IMG/VR virus record: IMGVR_UViG_3300029397_000001
Location: 1 to 34,406 of that record
DNA: 34,406 nucleotides
DNA from: a virus
Strand: one strand, 5' to 3'
A model generated the notes under the pieces. The model saw nothing but the letters and a program-made list of their open reading frames with translations. It was not told the origin of the DNA and did not search any database. The translations under genes and the position numbers were made by a program. Positions 2,333 through 7,385 of this stretch are shown piece by piece. Within the stretch, counting starts at the first letter, position 1. Each line of letters begins with the position of its first letter.

Positions 2333-2764
2333 ATGACCCACGCCCGCAAGCCCCGCCGCCACAAGCGCTTTCGGCCCAGCATCCCGCGGTTGCCGATGAC
2401 CAGCGCGCTGCGCGATCGCATCGCCACGCACATGCACGGCGCATTCGCGGCGCTGCGCCTGTCGCCCAACGCGGAGGCGTTCGACTCCCTGGCCAACATC
2501 ATGAACATGGTCGGCCTGACCGTCCAGAACGATCCGGCGTTCCGCCAGCAGTACCTGCTGATCAACGGCGCGGCGCGGACGATGAACCAGATCGGCGCCA
2601 AGGTCGAGGCCGGGCTTGCGCTGCGTGACCACGAGATTGCCTCGCTGACGGTTGCGGTCAGCGCCATTGACGACATCCTGCCGCGCATCGACGCCGCGCG
2701 GCTGCGCATCAACGAATACATCGCCGTCGCCCTGATTCGGGCGGCGCAGACCCAAGGAGCCTGA
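2333..2764 (+). CDS. Unknown phage protein with basic N-terminus
   Basis: The ATG at 2333 gives a 143-residue protein. The frame stays open far upstream, but that part is an Arg-rich shadow of the previous gene, so the internal ATG is preferred. The first 20 residues are strongly basic (KPRRHKRFRPS), followed by a mostly helical body (LRDRIATHMHGAFAALRLSP, then INGAARTMNQIGAKVEAGLA). There is no membrane segment and no family I can name. About 80 bases separate it from the gene before, with no clear terminator, and it nearly abuts the gene after. The basic tail could bind nucleic acid, but that is speculation. Confidence 0.7.
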   Translation: MTHARKPRRHKRFRPSIPRLPMTSALRDRIATHMHGAFAALRLSPNAEAFDSLANIMNMVGLTVQNDPAFRQQYLLINGAARTMNQIGAKVEAGLALRDHEIASLTVAVSAIDDILPRIDAARLRINEYIAVALIRAAQTQGA

Positions 2765-2765
2765 C

Positions 2766-3287
2766 ATGACCACCACCATTCCCGCCGGCTGGAAGCTTCT
2801 GGCGAAGAAGACCTGCTACGTGCTGATGCATGACGGAGCCGTGATTGCCACGCTGGCCGGGCCGGAGTCGAAGGAGAACGCCGCCATCATCGCGCGCATG
2901 CTCGCCCCCCCTTCGTGCCCGACCTGCAACGACCAGGGCGCAGTCGGCAACATCCTGACCGCCCAGCCTTGCCCCGACTGCGCCGCCCCTGGCGTATCCA
3001 CGATGGAGGATGCGCAGGCCGGCGAAACCCTGGCGACCTCGATTTTCGGCGAGCGCATCGGCAAGATGCTGGATGGCAACGCTCCCGCTGCTGGCGATGA
3101 GCTGGATGCGGCGCGGTATCGCTGGCTGCGCGATGAAAGCTTGGGCGTTCCGGACGGCATGCGCGAGATCTATGTAATCCAGCAGCGATTGCCGCACACC
3201 GAGGGCACGGACACGGAGCTTTTCGACACCGCCCTTGATGCTGCTGTGGACGCCGCCATTGCAGCCCAACGTAAGGGGGATGCGTGA
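2766..3287 (+). CDS. Unknown protein with DnaJ-like zinc-finger cysteines
   Basis: This 173-residue protein starts at an ATG one base after the previous stop, with AAGGAG just upstream. Residues about 50-75 contain a CPTC...CPDC pair in the spacing of a small treble or DnaJ-type zinc knuckle. The C-terminal part, DAARYRWLRDES followed by a hydrophobic stretch and DTALDAAVDAAI, is a module I associate with many unrelated small phage proteins. Function is unknown; a zinc-stabilised small regulator or adaptor would fit. Its TGA overlaps the ATG of the methyltransferase gene. Confidence 0.75.
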   Translation: MTTTIPAGWKLLAKKTCYVLMHDGAVIATLAGPESKENAAIIARMLAPPSCPTCNDQGAVGNILTAQPCPDCAAPGVSTMEDAQAGETLATSIFGERIGKMLDGNAPAAGDELDAARYRWLRDESLGVPDGMREIYVIQQRLPHTEGTDTELFDTALDAAVDAAIAAQRKGDA

Positions 3288-5002
3288 TGGCCAGGGCCGT
3301 CGCCTACTACAACGAGATCGACCCTTACGCCGCCGACTGGCTCCGCAACCTGATCGCGGCCGGCCACATTGCCCCCGGCGACGTGGACGAACGCAGCATA
3401 GAGGATGTACACCCCGATGACCTTCGACCCTACACCCAGTGCCATTTCTTCGCCGGCATCGGCGTCTGGTCCTATGCCCTTCGCCGCGCCGGCTGGCCTG
3501 ACGATCGACCTGTTTGGACCGGTTCCTGCCCCTGCCAACCTTTCTCCGCGGCAGGCAAAGGAACTGCGTTTGATGACGAGCGGCACCTCTGGCCGGCCTG
3601 GCACTGGCTCATCCAAGAGTGCCGCCCTCCAGTCGTCTTTGGTGAGCAGGTTGCAAGCAAGGACGCAGAGCCTTGGCTCGACCTTGTTTCGACTGACCTG
3701 GAAGCCCTGGCCTTTGTCGTCGCGGCGTGCGCTTTCCCGTCTGCGAGCGTCGGTGCTCCGCACATCCGCGATCGAACCTACTTCGTGGCCCACGCCGCAG
3801 GCCAGGGATTTCAAGGGCGCCAACTCGGCCGGCAACGAGCTGGATCACAACAGCCGGCCGTTGAACGAAGTGGCCGTATTGGCCGGTTGGAGAACACCCA
3901 ACACGGTGGACTCGAAGCTGGGCAACCGGGACGGCGACGGGCAGGTGCAGTTGTGCCACCAAGCGCTGCTGGCGGGCTGGGGAACGCCGCTGACCAACCA
4001 TGCCAACGGGACACCGGAGGCGTTTCTCGAGAGAAAGCGTCGGAGCATGGAGCGCGGGTCGGCATCGATGGGAGTCAGCCTGACCGACCTGGACATGCAG
4101 GTGCAAGCGTGGTGCGCGGGATGGCCGACACCGATGGCAGGCACGCCGGCGCAGAACGGAAACAACGCGGCGGGGAACAACGACAGCAGCCGGAGGACAG
4201 TGGAACTGGCGACCTGGCCAACGCCACGGGCGGCGGACGGCGAGAAGAACGTGCGGACGCTGGACGGCGCCATGTCGGAGATCTCCCGCAAGGGCTCGCC
4301 GCAGGATCTAGCGCAGGCGGCAGCGATCTGCGGCCCGGCCCGGTTAACGGCTTCTGGCGAGCTGCTGATTGGCTGCTCTGCCGGGATGGAAAGTGGCGGC
4401 CAGTTGAACCCGGCTATGAGCAGATGGTTGATGGGTCTGCCGGCAGCCTGGGACGAGTGCGCGCCGGCGACATCGAAGAAATCCAGGAGGAAGTGAATGC
4501 TTGGGAGATCAGACATCAAGCCGACGCCGGGGAAGCCCTGCGCCGAGTGCGGCTCGATCTTCGAGCGCAAGCGCTTTGCGAGCGGGAGGCTGGAAGATTT
4601 TCTGGCATTCAGTCGCCGGCGGTACTGCTCGCTTTCCTGCGCCAACTCACAGAGCAAGGGTGGCGATTCGCGGACGCGCTGGCATGCGAGGGCGCAGCAG
4701 CACTGCAAATCGTCGTGCGAGTCCTGCGGTTCGATCCGAGCGCTGCACGTACACCACTGCGACGAGAACTGGAGGAACAACTCGCCGGACAACCTGCAGA
4801 CCCTCTGCAAGAGTTGTCATCGATCCTGGCACATCACGCAGCGAAATGCTGGGGTGACGCCTGCCGGGAGAAAGCCGGCGCTGCAAGTTTCCCCCTCGCT
4901 CATGGGGCTCCCGCCCGAGTGGGACGCCTGCGCGCCTACGGCAACGCGATCAACGCGCAGCAAGCGCAAATCTTCATCGAAGAAAGCATGAGGTGCATAT
5001 GA
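3287..5002 (+). CDS. C5 cytosine DNA methyltransferase with an in-frame insertion
   Basis: The N-terminal 170 residues carry the C5 methyltransferase core: FFAGIG (motif I, SAM binding, about 54-59), GSCPCQPFSAAG with catalytic Cys about 83 (motif IV), FGEQV in place of the usual ENV (motif VI) and HIRDRTYFVA (motif VIII). The end carries RVGRLRAYGNAI plus AQIFIE (motifs IX/X). Between lies a Gly/Arg/Gln-rich segment where target recognition normally sits, with recurring LxNA and ADTDG units. The frame also runs open through about 157 extra residues (roughly 4420-4890), exactly where an HNH gene sits in another frame. The protein, 571 residues, probably methylates phage DNA against host restriction. 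Whether it is active with the insertion is unknown. GTG at 3284 is an alternative start, but ATG 3287 is better spaced from AAGGGGG. Confidence 0.8.
   Translation: MARAVAYYNEIDPYAADWLRNLIAAGHIAPGDVDERSIEDVHPDDLRPYTQCHFFAGIGVWSYALRRAGWPDDRPVWTGSCPCQPFSAAGKGTAFDDERHLWPAWHWLIQECRPPVVFGEQVASKDAEPWLDLVSTDLEALAFVVAACAFPSASVGAPHIRDRTYFVAHAAGQGFQGRQLGRQRAGSQQPAVERSGRIGRLENTQHGGLEAGQPGRRRAGAVVPPSAAGGLGNAADQPCQRDTGGVSREKASEHGARVGIDGSQPDRPGHAGASVVRGMADTDGRHAGAERKQRGGEQRQQPEDSGTGDLANATGGGRREERADAGRRHVGDLPQGLAAGSSAGGSDLRPGPVNGFWRAADWLLCRDGKWRPVEPGYEQMVDGSAGSLGRVRAGDIEEIQEEVNAWEIRHQADAGEALRRVRLDLRAQALCEREAGRFSGIQSPAVLLAFLRQLTEQGWRFADALACEGAAALQIVVRVLRFDPSAARTPLRRELEEQLAGQPADPLQELSSILAHHAAKCWGDACREKAGAASFPLAHGAPARVGRLRAYGNAINAQQAQIFIEESMRCI
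3405..4496 (+). CDS. WPTP-repeat protein overlapping the methyltransferase gene in another frame
   Basis: This 363-residue ORF lies wholly inside the methyltransferase gene in a different frame, yet does not look like a shadow. It has an ordered N-terminal block (IDLFGPVPAPANLSPRQAKE, then SRLQARTQSLGSTLFRLTWK), recurring W-x-TP units (SWPTPQARDFKG, GWRTPN, GWGTP, GWPTP, TWPTPRAADGEKN) and a tidy end, GGQLNPAMSRWLMGLPAAWD. From memory, phage proteins of this type are widely annotated beside cytosine methyltransferases. Function is unknown. The first ATG is used, with ATG 3417 as an alternative. The TGA stop is followed at once by the ATG of the HNH gene in the same frame. It may instead be a conserved by-product of methyltransferase coding; I judge it more likely real. 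Confidence 0.6.
   Translation: MYTPMTFDPTPSAISSPASASGPMPFAAPAGLTIDLFGPVPAPANLSPRQAKELRLMTSGTSGRPGTGSSKSAALQSSLVSRLQARTQSLGSTLFRLTWKPWPLSSRRALSRLRASVLRTSAIEPTSWPTPQARDFKGANSAGNELDHNSRPLNEVAVLAGWRTPNTVDSKLGNRDGDGQVQLCHQALLAGWGTPLTNHANGTPEAFLERKRRSMERGSASMGVSLTDLDMQVQAWCAGWPTPMAGTPAQNGNNAAGNNDSSRRTVELATWPTPRAADGEKNVRTLDGAMSEISRKGSPQDLAQAAAICGPARLTASGELLIGCSAGMESGGQLNPAMSRWLMGLPAAWDECAPATSKKSRRK
4419..4496 (+). repeat. Diverged direct repeat of the methyltransferase 3' end, copy 1
   Basis: This stretch aligns with the true end of the methyltransferase gene, displaced by 471 bases (157 codons). ATGGGTCTGCCG here matches ATGGGGCTCCCG at 4902, and GGGACGAGTGCGCGCC matches GGGACGCCTGCGCGCC. Both readings are echoed: LMGLPAAWDECAP against LMGLPPEWDACAP in one frame, GRVRAG against GRLRAY in the other. 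The copies have diverged, so the event is not recent or the second copy came in with the HNH gene. Confidence 0.7.
4497..4991 (+). CDS. HNH endonuclease inserted in the methyltransferase locus
   Basis: A 164-residue HNH protein. An N-terminal zinc knuckle (CAEC at 15-18 and YCSLSCAN at 43-50) precedes the nuclease: CESCGSIRALHVHHCDENW with HH at 86-87, NNSPDNLQTLC with Asn at 95 and 99, and KSCH with Cys 104, Cys 107 and His 108. Such free-standing HNH enzymes nick or cut DNA and can spread as homing endonucleases. The last 30 residues, beginning SLMGLPPEWDACAPT, are not part of the nuclease: they repeat the C-terminus of the WPTP ORF just upstream (RWLMGLPAAWDECAP). The gene therefore appears to have inserted while duplicating, or carrying its own copy of, the 3' end of its target. 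Confidence 0.85.
   Translation: MLGRSDIKPTPGKPCAECGSIFERKRFASGRLEDFLAFSRRRYCSLSCANSQSKGGDSRTRWHARAQQHCKSSCESCGSIRALHVHHCDENWRNNSPDNLQTLCKSCHRSWHITQRNAGVTPAGRKPALQVSPSLMGLPPEWDACAPTATRSTRSKRKSSSKKA
4890..5002 (+). repeat. Direct repeat, copy 2 (intact methyltransferase 3' end)
   Basis: This is the second copy, which encodes motif IX/X of the methyltransferase (GRLRAYGNAINAQQAQIFIE) in one frame and the last 30 residues of the HNH protein in the other. It retains the conserved GNA motif that copy 1 has lost. Confidence 0.65.
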
Positions 5003-6408
5003 CCCAACAAGACGACATCACCCAGCGCGTGCTGACGGCAGAGCATCATCTGAACGAGCTGATGCGCCTCACGCAACCCTGGCCGAACGCCACGATACCC
5101 TGCGCAACCGTGCGCTCGCATGTTGAACAGGCGCTGTCCAAGCTGCGCGCCCCTCTAGCCGACGAGCGGGCGTCGGACCAGACTGCGCCGGGGCGTCAGT
5201 ACCACATCCTCAAGACCGACCCGGAGGTTTTCCAGGCGGTCCTGTCCGGCGCAAAGACGTTCGAAATCCGCTTGAACGACCGAGGCTATGCCGTTGGCGA
5301 CGTGCTGGGCCTGCGCGAAACGAAGCACACCGGCGCGGAAATGCGGGCCGGCGCGCCGTTGGTTTACACCGGGCGCGAGTGCCAGCGCTTCGTCAGCCAT
5401 GTGCTGACGGGCTACGGGCTTGCGGATGGCTGGTGCTGCCTGTCGTTCCGGCTGCCCCACGCTGGCGGGGAAAGCGCCCCTGTAGCCGATGAGACGACGC
5501 TCCAGGTTTGGGCTGAACGCTTCCCGGAGATATCCGACATGGGCCGCCTGCGCGATGCGTGGAACGAAGCCAGAGCAAGCGCCCCGGTAGCCGACGAACG
5601 GGAATTGCGCTCGGCAGCGCAAGCCTTTTACGACGCGTCGAAAACTGTTGTGCGCTTCGCTGTGGAATCGTTGGATGATCGGGATGCGCTTGTTGCCGCA
5701 AACGTTCGCCTGCGCGCCGCCCTGGCAAGCGCCCCTGTAGCCGGGGCCGACCGTGACGCCGATGAACGCGCAGTAATGACGCCTGCTAAGGCCGCGTATG
5801 TGGAGCATTTCGGCCATGCCGCAGGGTGGCTTTCCTATAAGGGAAGCTGGTTCATCGAAGGGTTTAAGGCGGGACAGAAAAGCGCCCCTGTAGCAGGGGA
5901 GGCGCAGCCGGTGGCTCTGGTCGAAGTGTCGGTACCACATCTGCGCTCTATCTCCGTCAAGATCATTCCGGACGCGCCAATGCCGAATGTCGGCGACCTG
6001 CTCTATGCCACGCCCCAGGCCAGCGCCGAGCCACAGCAATACACACACGCCGAAGTGTTTGGGCCGATGGAAAGCGCTTGGAATGCAGCCCTGGATCAAG
6101 CCGCGGCTGTTGCCAAGCGCATCAGCGACAAATACGCCTTCGGCCATTATGGCAACGAGACGGACACGGCGGACGAGATCGAGCGGGAGATTCTGGCCCT
6201 CAAGCAGCCCCAGGCGGACAAGGACGACGGCCAGCAGCGCGCCGTTGATGTGGACCTGTACGGGTTGGCAATTGAATGCGGCGCCGTCATCAGCACCGAT
6301 GACCTGTCCTGGGCGTTTTCATACAGCGCCATGCGCAATTTCTGCATCCGCGTCCGCGCCGCCCTTTCTGCCACCCAGGCCGAACAAGGAGAGCGGGATG
6401 CGAAGTGA
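4999..6408 (+). CDS. Repeat-built protein with DUF3850/ASCH-like domain
   Basis: A GTG at 4993 is possible, but ATG 4999 has GAGG five bases upstream and overlaps the methyltransferase stop. The product is 469 residues. Residues about 65-155 match the DUF3850 (ASCH-like) fold: YHILKTDPEVFQAVLSGAKT, FEIRLNDRGYAVGDVL, VYTGREC and LTGYGLADGW; ASCH folds are thought to bind RNA or modified nucleotides. The rest is a chain of unrelated segments joined by near-identical SAPVADE or SAPVAGE linkers, each encoded by a ~20-base repeat, with further pieces such as GDLLYATPQAS and YGLAIECGAVIS. It looks assembled from cassettes. No catalytic motif is evident in the later segments. Confidence 0.8.
   Translation: MTQQDDITQRVLTAEHHLNELMRLTQPWPNATIPCATVRSHVEQALSKLRAPLADERASDQTAPGRQYHILKTDPEVFQAVLSGAKTFEIRLNDRGYAVGDVLGLRETKHTGAEMRAGAPLVYTGRECQRFVSHVLTGYGLADGWCCLSFRLPHAGGESAPVADETTLQVWAERFPEISDMGRLRDAWNEARASAPVADERELRSAAQAFYDASKTVVRFAVESLDDRDALVAANVRLRAALASAPVAGADRDADERAVMTPAKAAYVEHFGHAAGWLSYKGSWFIEGFKAGQKSAPVAGEAQPVALVEVSVPHLRSISVKIIPDAPMPNVGDLLYATPQASAEPQQYTHAEVFGPMESAWNAALDQAAAVAKRISDKYAFGHYGNETDTADEIEREILALKQPQADKDDGQQRAVDVDLYGLAIECGAVISTDDLSWAFSYSAMRNFCIRVRAALSATQAEQGERDAK
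5473..5900 (+). repeat. Four ~20-bp direct repeats encoding SAPVA linkers
   Basis: AGCGCCCCTGTAGCCGATGA occurs at 5473 and recurs with few changes at 5578, 5728 and 5881; a weaker copy (GCGCCCCTCTAGCCGACGAG) begins near 5148. Spacings are 105, 150 and 153 bases, all multiples of three, so exchange between copies would keep the frame. Confidence 0.85.
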
Positions 6409-6751
6409 CCGCGAGCTATTGGAACTGGCAGCCCGAGCCGCGCTGGGAAGCACCAGCATTCCCGACCACCACGTCCAGATGGTCAGCAAGGGCTGGAATC
6501 CACTGGAAGACGACGCGGCCGCGTTGCGTCTGGCTGTCCGGCTTTGGATGACGGTTCAGCGCAAGACCGACCGCGCCGTCGTCACTGCTCAAGACCCGCG
6601 TTTCACGGGCACGATCGAGGTCCCATTCGTCGCCGAAGACCAAGGGGAATATGCCGGGGCTCGGCGCGCAGTCGTGCTGGTCGCCGCTGAAATCGGAGCT
6701 GCGATGTCCTCATCCGCCCAGCCCACCGAGGACGGAGGCGCCCATGGCTGA
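6398..6751 (+). CDS. Unknown small phage protein
   Basis: This 117-residue protein starts at ATG 6398, inside the end of the previous gene; the frame is open further upstream but only as its shadow. AAGGAGAG lies just before the start. It opens with a helix (MRSDRELLELAARAAL), then GWNPLEDDAAALRLAVRLWM, a pattern I recall from many short phage proteins of unknown role in early operons. The C-terminus is Ser/Gly-rich and probably flexible. There are no membrane segments or catalytic motifs. Confidence 0.75.
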   Translation: MRSDRELLELAARAALGSTSIPDHHVQMVSKGWNPLEDDAAALRLAVRLWMTVQRKTDRAVVTAQDPRFTGTIEVPFVAEDQGEYAGARRAVVLVAAEIGAAMSSSAQPTEDGGAHG

Positions 6752-7385
6752 TTCTTTGACACGCCTTCACCAACGCGAATACATGTCCTGGCGAGCGATG
6801 CGACGCCGCTGCAACGATCCGAAGGACCCGCAATTCCATAACTATGGAGGTCGCGGAATATCGATCTGTGCGCAGTGGAACCAATCCTTCGGCCAGTTCC
6901 TGCGGGATATGGGGCCGCGGCCTGAAGGAAAGACCCTTGACCGGATAAACGTCAATGGAAACTACGAGCCGACCAACTGTCGTTGGGCAACGATTAAGGA
7001 GCAGAACTCAAACCGGCGCGACACCGTCATCATCGAACGCGATGGCTTGGCGCTGCCGCTGAAGGACTGGGCCTCGCGTCTTGGCATCCCCTCAACCACG
7101 CTCTACAACCGCCACAAGGCGGGTCTCAAGGGCGTGACCATTCTTTCTGGTCGCCCGGCATGGATGAAGAAAAAGCCGGTGACTATCCCGGAACGTCCGA
7201 ACCGTGGCAACAAGGCTGGATATCGAGGCGTCAGCAAGGACGGGAGCATGTGGAAGGCACAGACGCGCATCAACGGCAAGAAGATCTACCTGGGGCGGTT
7301 TCCCAGTGCTGAAGAGGCACATGCGGTGTACTGCGCGGCTCAAGCCGGACGCCCGAAATCCGACACCGACAAGAAGGAGATGTGA
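6744..7385 (+). CDS. AP2-domain protein, homing-endonuclease relative
   Basis: The ATG at 6744 overlaps the previous gene by eight bases and gives 213 residues. Three parts are visible. Residues 10-92 hold a module common in phage mobile-endonuclease relatives: MRRRCNDPKDPQFHNYGGRG, LDRINVNGNYEPTNCRWATI and KEQNSNRR. Residues 104-127 form an HTH (LPLKDWASRLGIPSTTLYNR). Residues 156-205 are an AP2 DNA-binding domain: GYRGVSKDGSMWKAQTRING then KKIYLGRFPSAEEAHAVY. I see no full HNH active site, so it may be a degenerate nuclease or a plain DNA-binding protein. GC is somewhat lower than in neighbouring genes, fitting an acquired gene. Confidence 0.85.
   Translation: MADSLTRLHQREYMSWRAMRRRCNDPKDPQFHNYGGRGISICAQWNQSFGQFLRDMGPRPEGKTLDRINVNGNYEPTNCRWATIKEQNSNRRDTVIIERDGLALPLKDWASRLGIPSTTLYNRHKAGLKGVTILSGRPAWMKKKPVTIPERPNRGNKAGYRGVSKDGSMWKAQTRINGKKIYLGRFPSAEEAHAVYCAAQAGRPKSDTDKKEM

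Follow-up and report, generated by a model that had tools for sequence, protein, structure and literature searches.

Out-of-frame, or 'hidden', HNH endonuclease genes have been described in mycobacteriophage DNA methylases as the ShiLan domain (Arsenault, Gosselin, Gogarten, Genes 2025, PMC11855218; Genes 2023, PMC9957025). In ShiLan the methylase frame runs through the insert without a stop, the distribution is scattered, intron or intein features are missing, the insert opens with a sequence like that downstream of its site, and the hidden HNH gene has no detectable ribosome-binding site (PMC11855218). The published precedent rests on a small number of mycobacteriophages (PMC11855218). Here we describe an element of this kind in IMG/VR virus record IMGVR_UViG_3300029397_000001, a 34.4-kb viral contig analysed over its whole length (the window). 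Three open reading frames (ORFs) overlap at the locus: a C5-cytosine DNA methyltransferase (MTase), a 'WPTP' ORF and an HNH endonuclease ORF. Our results indicate, with a probability of about 0.8, that the +1 frame of the phage C5-MTase harbours a mobile homing-type HNH gene; in this reading it is the layout of the element that lets it survive without splicing. The wider statement is probable, although we hold it less firmly: that the HNH genes form a widespread mobile family whose DNA is dual-coding, specifying a nuclease in one frame and a selected helical MTase segment in the other, and that three genes are preserved without splicing in the group to which the window belongs.

The window element and ShiLan have in common a stop-free methylase frame, an HNH gene in another frame and a scattered distribution. 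Neither has intron or intein features, and in both the insert begins with sequence similar to the downstream flank (copy 1, see below). The two also differ in several respects. In the ShiLan genome the host gene is a DPPY amino-type methylase and HNH is read in its +2 frame from a GTG without a Shine-Dalgarno (SD) sequence, whereas the window element occupies a different site in a C5-MTase, in the +1 frame, and starts from an ATG preceded by AGGAGG. Further features of the window are a third overlapping gene, whose 3' end is duplicated, and a helical segment for which selection was measured. The HNH proteins of the two systems are only ~26% similar (E 0.004). A comparison of methylase, site, frame and HNH lineage did not indicate common descent with ShiLan; MTase class, frame and site differ and the HNH similarity is weak. 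The window element is thus of the ShiLan kind but forms a lineage of its own. Pacc40 gp60, compared here by its published description, also combines a methylase gene with an HNH-like ORF in another of its frames (PMC11855218); methylase and site are different. No report of a hidden HNH gene in C5-MTases was found, the ShiLan papers being the sole relevant literature in a search that covered subscription journals and preprints thinly. Relative to ShiLan, the third gene accommodated by duplication, the C5-MTase host and the measured second-frame selection are new, while the hidden-HNH trick itself is known.

The window MTase (3284..5002, + strand; 572 aa) matches PF00145 (E=1.9e-11) and phrog_363 (E=1.6e-83). 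It has the PF00145 core with the PCQ motif, a GN(A/S) motif X and an M.HhaI-like fold. Its homologue in Bordetella phage PHB09 (L001) is 335 aa long, is 88% identical to the window MTase and lacks the additional segment. Alignment with PHB09 and with the closest empty alleles (L220-L228, the nearest being L222), which show a clean join at the same site, places the inserted segment at 4415..4888 on the + strand. At this site 474 nt replace 3 nt ('ACA'), giving a net gain of 471 nt, or exactly 157 codons. The insertion is located at a codon boundary, between the MTase codons GGC (EPG) and TTC (FP), and separates the target-recognition region from motif X: the insert accounts for MTase residues ~378-535, and motif X (GNAI) comes after them. 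WRPVE and GNAI lie 25 aa apart in nearly all of the uninterrupted relatives in which both were located (two have 48). Most HNH-bearing relatives have a spacing of 182 (=25+157), with 180 in L016 and 181 in L017. The original prediction had proposed that an HNH gene entered overlapping genes with a displacement divisible by three and with the 3' end of its target duplicated, in the manner of a mobile homing element, and this picture is supported. Alignment to uninterrupted MTases, which it had named as the way to define the insertion ends, yields the borders given above. The displacement of 471 bases and the open MTase frame it had described are confirmed by a direct repeat at that offset and by the net +157 codons relative to PHB09.

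The second host gene, the WPTP ORF (3405-4496, + strand), is read in the +1 frame of the MTase and matches phrog_31772 (E=2e-44) and phrog_1008 (E=3e-39). The WPTP start of PHB09 corresponds to the window ATG at 3417. In 58/58 uninterrupted MTases no stop interrupts the WPTP +1 frame, as compared to 3.4 expected under synonymous shuffling, and WPTP is a real overlapping gene. In the window it stops at TGA 4494-4496, and its 3' end from ~4415 on was imported with the insert. The HNH ORF (4497-4991, + strand; 164 aa) continues in the WPTP frame from the very next codon, as had been noticed earlier.

Both 3' ends can be explained by the duplicated flank. A direct repeat of 45 nt (4431-4475 / 4902-4946, offset 471) is 73% identical between its two copies. 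Copy 1 (4415..4475, + strand) opens the insert, whose first ~50 nt duplicate the target's downstream flank in diverged form; it restores the WPTP 3' end by giving this gene a new C-terminus and stop. Copy 2 (4889..4999, + strand; FPLAHGAPARVGRLRAYGNAI...) is the native MTase 3' end, nearly identical to the empty alleles, and is also read as the HNH tail. The WPTP ORF of PHB09 ends in ...MGLPPEWDACAPTATRSTRSRRKSLSKNA, which is the window's second copy, and the HNH tail matches the PHB09 WPTP C-terminus ...MGLPPEWDACAPTATRSTRSRRK. The HNH tail therefore represents the native WPTP end, and it was the upstream copy (MGLPAAWDECAPATSKKSRRK) that came in with the insert. The likeness of the last HNH residues to the WPTP C-terminus was correctly seen in the original prediction, but the direction of copying has to be reversed. 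It had also assumed that the invader supplied a replacement 3' end to both overlapping genes; this holds for WPTP, which uses copy 1, and not for the MTase, which keeps its native end in copy 2. Some mitochondrial mobile elements (e.g. in atp6 of fungi) combine an endonuclease gene with a duplicated C-terminus of their target, which replaces the 3' end of the gene they invade. There the native end is displaced; in the window the MTase continues to use it, in another frame.

The two copies have become specialised. In the empty alleles (58 distinct) the block is kept in both frames, with identity to consensus of 0.87 in the MTase frame and 0.92 in the WPTP frame. In 20 inserted alleles the identity of copy 1 is 0.78 in the WPTP frame vs 0.30 in the MTase frame; that of copy 2 is 0.76 in the MTase frame vs 0.49 in the WPTP frame, and WPTP-frame stops occur in copy 2 of 6/20. 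Across these alleles there is a division of labour: copy 1 serves WPTP and copy 2 serves MTase. Given this copy-wise conservation of frames and the open WPTP frame, both overlapping genes look real, each with one functional end.

Regarding the MTase frame inside the HNH gene, we used HNH relatives drawn from viral and genome contigs, 85 of them distinct. The MTase frame is stop-free across the HNH domain in 83 of the 85, while 0.5 would be expected with the HNH protein fixed and its codons shuffled; a chance open frame is thereby rejected. For the window alone, synonymous-codon shuffling gives a P of about 0.0015-0.0045. The two exceptions are located outside any open host ORF: the free-standing L093, with 5 stops, and L210, which lies between MTase fragments and has 19. 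In L210 the HNH relative lies at 1445-1951 with its 19 stops in the -1 frame, and it may be a free-standing gene, an intron-borne gene or part of a disrupted MTase. All eleven full-length relatives found first show the same nesting as the window; the MTase ORF is broken upstream of the insert in L011 and L014. The nesting is also the same in Komagataeibacter phage phiKX1, at 31% identity in the MTase frame, and in the AT-rich Staphylococcus phage CUB-EPI_14.

The open frame is also conserved in sequence. Over 36 disjoint pairs, differences that are synonymous for HNH are conservative in the MTase frame far more often than random synonymous choices would be (z 5.2-6.1, stops excluded, kappa 1-8). 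With stops scored neutral, z is +6.3 in the MTase frame and ~0 in the three other frames, and the antisense reading of the same triplets gives a negative value. Codon-usage or mutation bias as the source of this conservation is rejected by the control frames and by the kappa range. Purifying selection on the 157-residue MTase-frame segment is thus shown statistically. The MTase-frame reading of the HNH gene (4475..4885, + strand) appears as a conserved alpha-helical segment in the alignment, the substitution test and the AlphaFold model. In the model, helices span MTase residues 394-457 and 507-534, the predicted local distance difference test (pLDDT) of the block is mostly 70-94, and the adjoining repeat region is disordered.

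A conserved segment, predicted to be helical with good confidence, is also what would be seen if the 157 codons were an ancestral MTase domain, overprinted by HNH in some lineages and lost from the uninterrupted relatives. We regard this as very improbable. The protein of the HNH frame is a member of a known HNH family, and its catalytic and zinc residues are invariant. The 5' end of the insert duplicates its flank, and the uninterrupted relatives, where such an ancestral domain would have refuted the original prediction, lack the segment and are joined without a scar. Searches of phages and viral contigs did not find an HNH-less copy: each of the 23/23 viral contigs matching the MTase-frame segment carries HNH (contig names were matched to the HNH survey), and in the annotated phage collection only Komagataeibacter phages were found, which are HNH-bearing. 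Since searches with the segment gave only HNH-bearing loci, it is not an independent MTase domain, and the ancestral origin is largely refuted.

Removal of the insert at the RNA or protein level, as a cryptic intron or intein, would make dual coding irrelevant, and the same gene family does contain a real intein elsewhere. In EBPR siphovirus 2 (gp44; L005, ~2740-3860) a C5-MTase carries an intein, with Hint and LAGLIDADG_3 matches, between the cysteines of the catalytic PC|CQ region. The window gives no comparable signal: Rfam gave no match for 3200-5200 at E up to 1, and the window MTase has no Hint or intein match in Pfam. Selection on the MTase frame would moreover be unexpected in a spliced element. 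This explanation is the least probable of those we considered.

The distribution of the insert is that expected of a mobile element, being scattered over the MTase tree. In a tree built without the insert, the 9 carriers need 7 state changes, at least 4 of which are forced by well-supported (starred) branches. The window falls in a 99/99-supported clade with 9 empty alleles, the nearest of which (L222) is 96% identical. A scan of flank identity found ~12 nt at the 3' junction that are common to the window and carrier L007 and not to the empty sisters; the tract is short and would fit co-conversion. Carriers comprise dozens of distinct alleles and occur on contigs of proteobacteria, in phages of these bacteria and in a Staphylococcus phage. 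An alternative is that HNH is a functional partner of the MTase, a restriction or nicking enzyme or a Vsr-type repair enzyme, co-inherited and not selfish. HNH restriction and nicking enzymes do exist, the weak Foldseek matches of our model include SciA of phage T5 and EcoKMcrA, and most of the close HNH relatives found sit inside C5-MTase or MTase-like genes. However, most close MTase relatives have no HNH insert and the carriers are scattered on the tree, the insertion site is identical in MTases of quite different sequence, and the L093 relative has no C5-MTase in its immediate surroundings. We therefore find a partnership unlikely, although better founded than an ancestral domain or splicing.

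The HNH protein (phrog_1271, E=4.5e-14) consists of an N-terminal CxxC...CxxxC zinc knuckle, an HNH core with CxxC...CxxCH, and the WPTP-derived tail. Residues H86, H87, N95, N99, H108 and H112 and the zinc cysteines 15, 18, 44, 48, 74, 77, 104 and 107 are invariant in 71 sequences, and the AlphaFold pLDDT of the core is ~90-96. Free-standing phage HNH endonucleases (phrog_144, phrog_1271) have a similar core with zinc knuckles; unlike the window HNH, they stand alone and constrain no second reading frame. Foldseek against the PDB gave weak HNH matches only and no close homologue, and tblastn of the HNH protein against plasmids gave no match. Separate translation of HNH is plausible, because an AGGAGG sequence (4485..4490, + strand) precedes the ATG at 4497 by 6 nt and similar motifs (GAGG/AGGA) occur in many relatives; in L008/L128 AGGAGG is found at the same position. 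In L016/L137, L136, L139, L089 and L090, WPTP and HNH form a single continuous ORF with no intervening stop.

How the nested homing-type gene is maintained may be pictured as follows. The HNH protein would be made from its own SD site and cut MTase alleles that lack the insert, close to where the duplicated sequence lies; recombinational repair would then copy the insert in. As the second frame is kept stop-free by purifying selection, the MTase could be translated through a mostly helical in-frame insert to its native 3' end and would stay active. WPTP, for its part, stops normally before the HNH start by means of the duplicated flank. Several points speak against this reading. Homing, HNH cleavage and activity of the enlarged MTase are inferred. 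The 83 open-frame cases are not independent because the alleles are related, and conservation is weaker in the MTase frame (59% identity) than in the HNH frame (78%). The MTase tree counts changes in which gain and loss are not separable, and its bootstrap is unsettled. Finally, a clear SD sequence is missing in some HNH relatives.

If the proposed layout is correct, a selfish endonuclease can persist in coding DNA without splicing by forming a harmless segment of its host gene in a second frame and duplicating the end of an overlapping gene. The dozens of distinct alleles allow selection on both frames to be demonstrated statistically, which goes beyond the mycobacteriophage precedent, and the empty alleles are available for a direct homing test. 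In addition, database entries annotated as 'methyltransferase' harbour nuclease genes that have gone unrecognised. One example is gp45 of Staphylococcus phage CUB-EPI_14 (L088:1830-3635), annotated as a DNA-cytosine methyltransferase, which conceals an HNH ORF at 2977-3468 with AGGAGG upstream.

Some further observations concern the host genes. PHROGs labels the WPTP ORF 'DNA methyltransferase', and phrog_1008 proteins are also found in another setting, as in-frame fusions with MTase motif X. In L164, L170, L172, L174, L185 and L186 the HNH gene is nested in a host ORF that lacks the PF00145 core and consists of a WPTP-type protein fused in frame to motif X (GNGQVP); this ORF may represent the C-terminal half of an MTase that has been split. 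The window contains ~234 bp of additional WPTP-repeat sequence (~3891-4115) relative to PHB09. Elsewhere in the window, an ORF at 6651-7385 without a Pfam match carries, as judged from its sequence, a YGGRGI-type motif, which is typical of other phage HNH/AP2 homing proteins.
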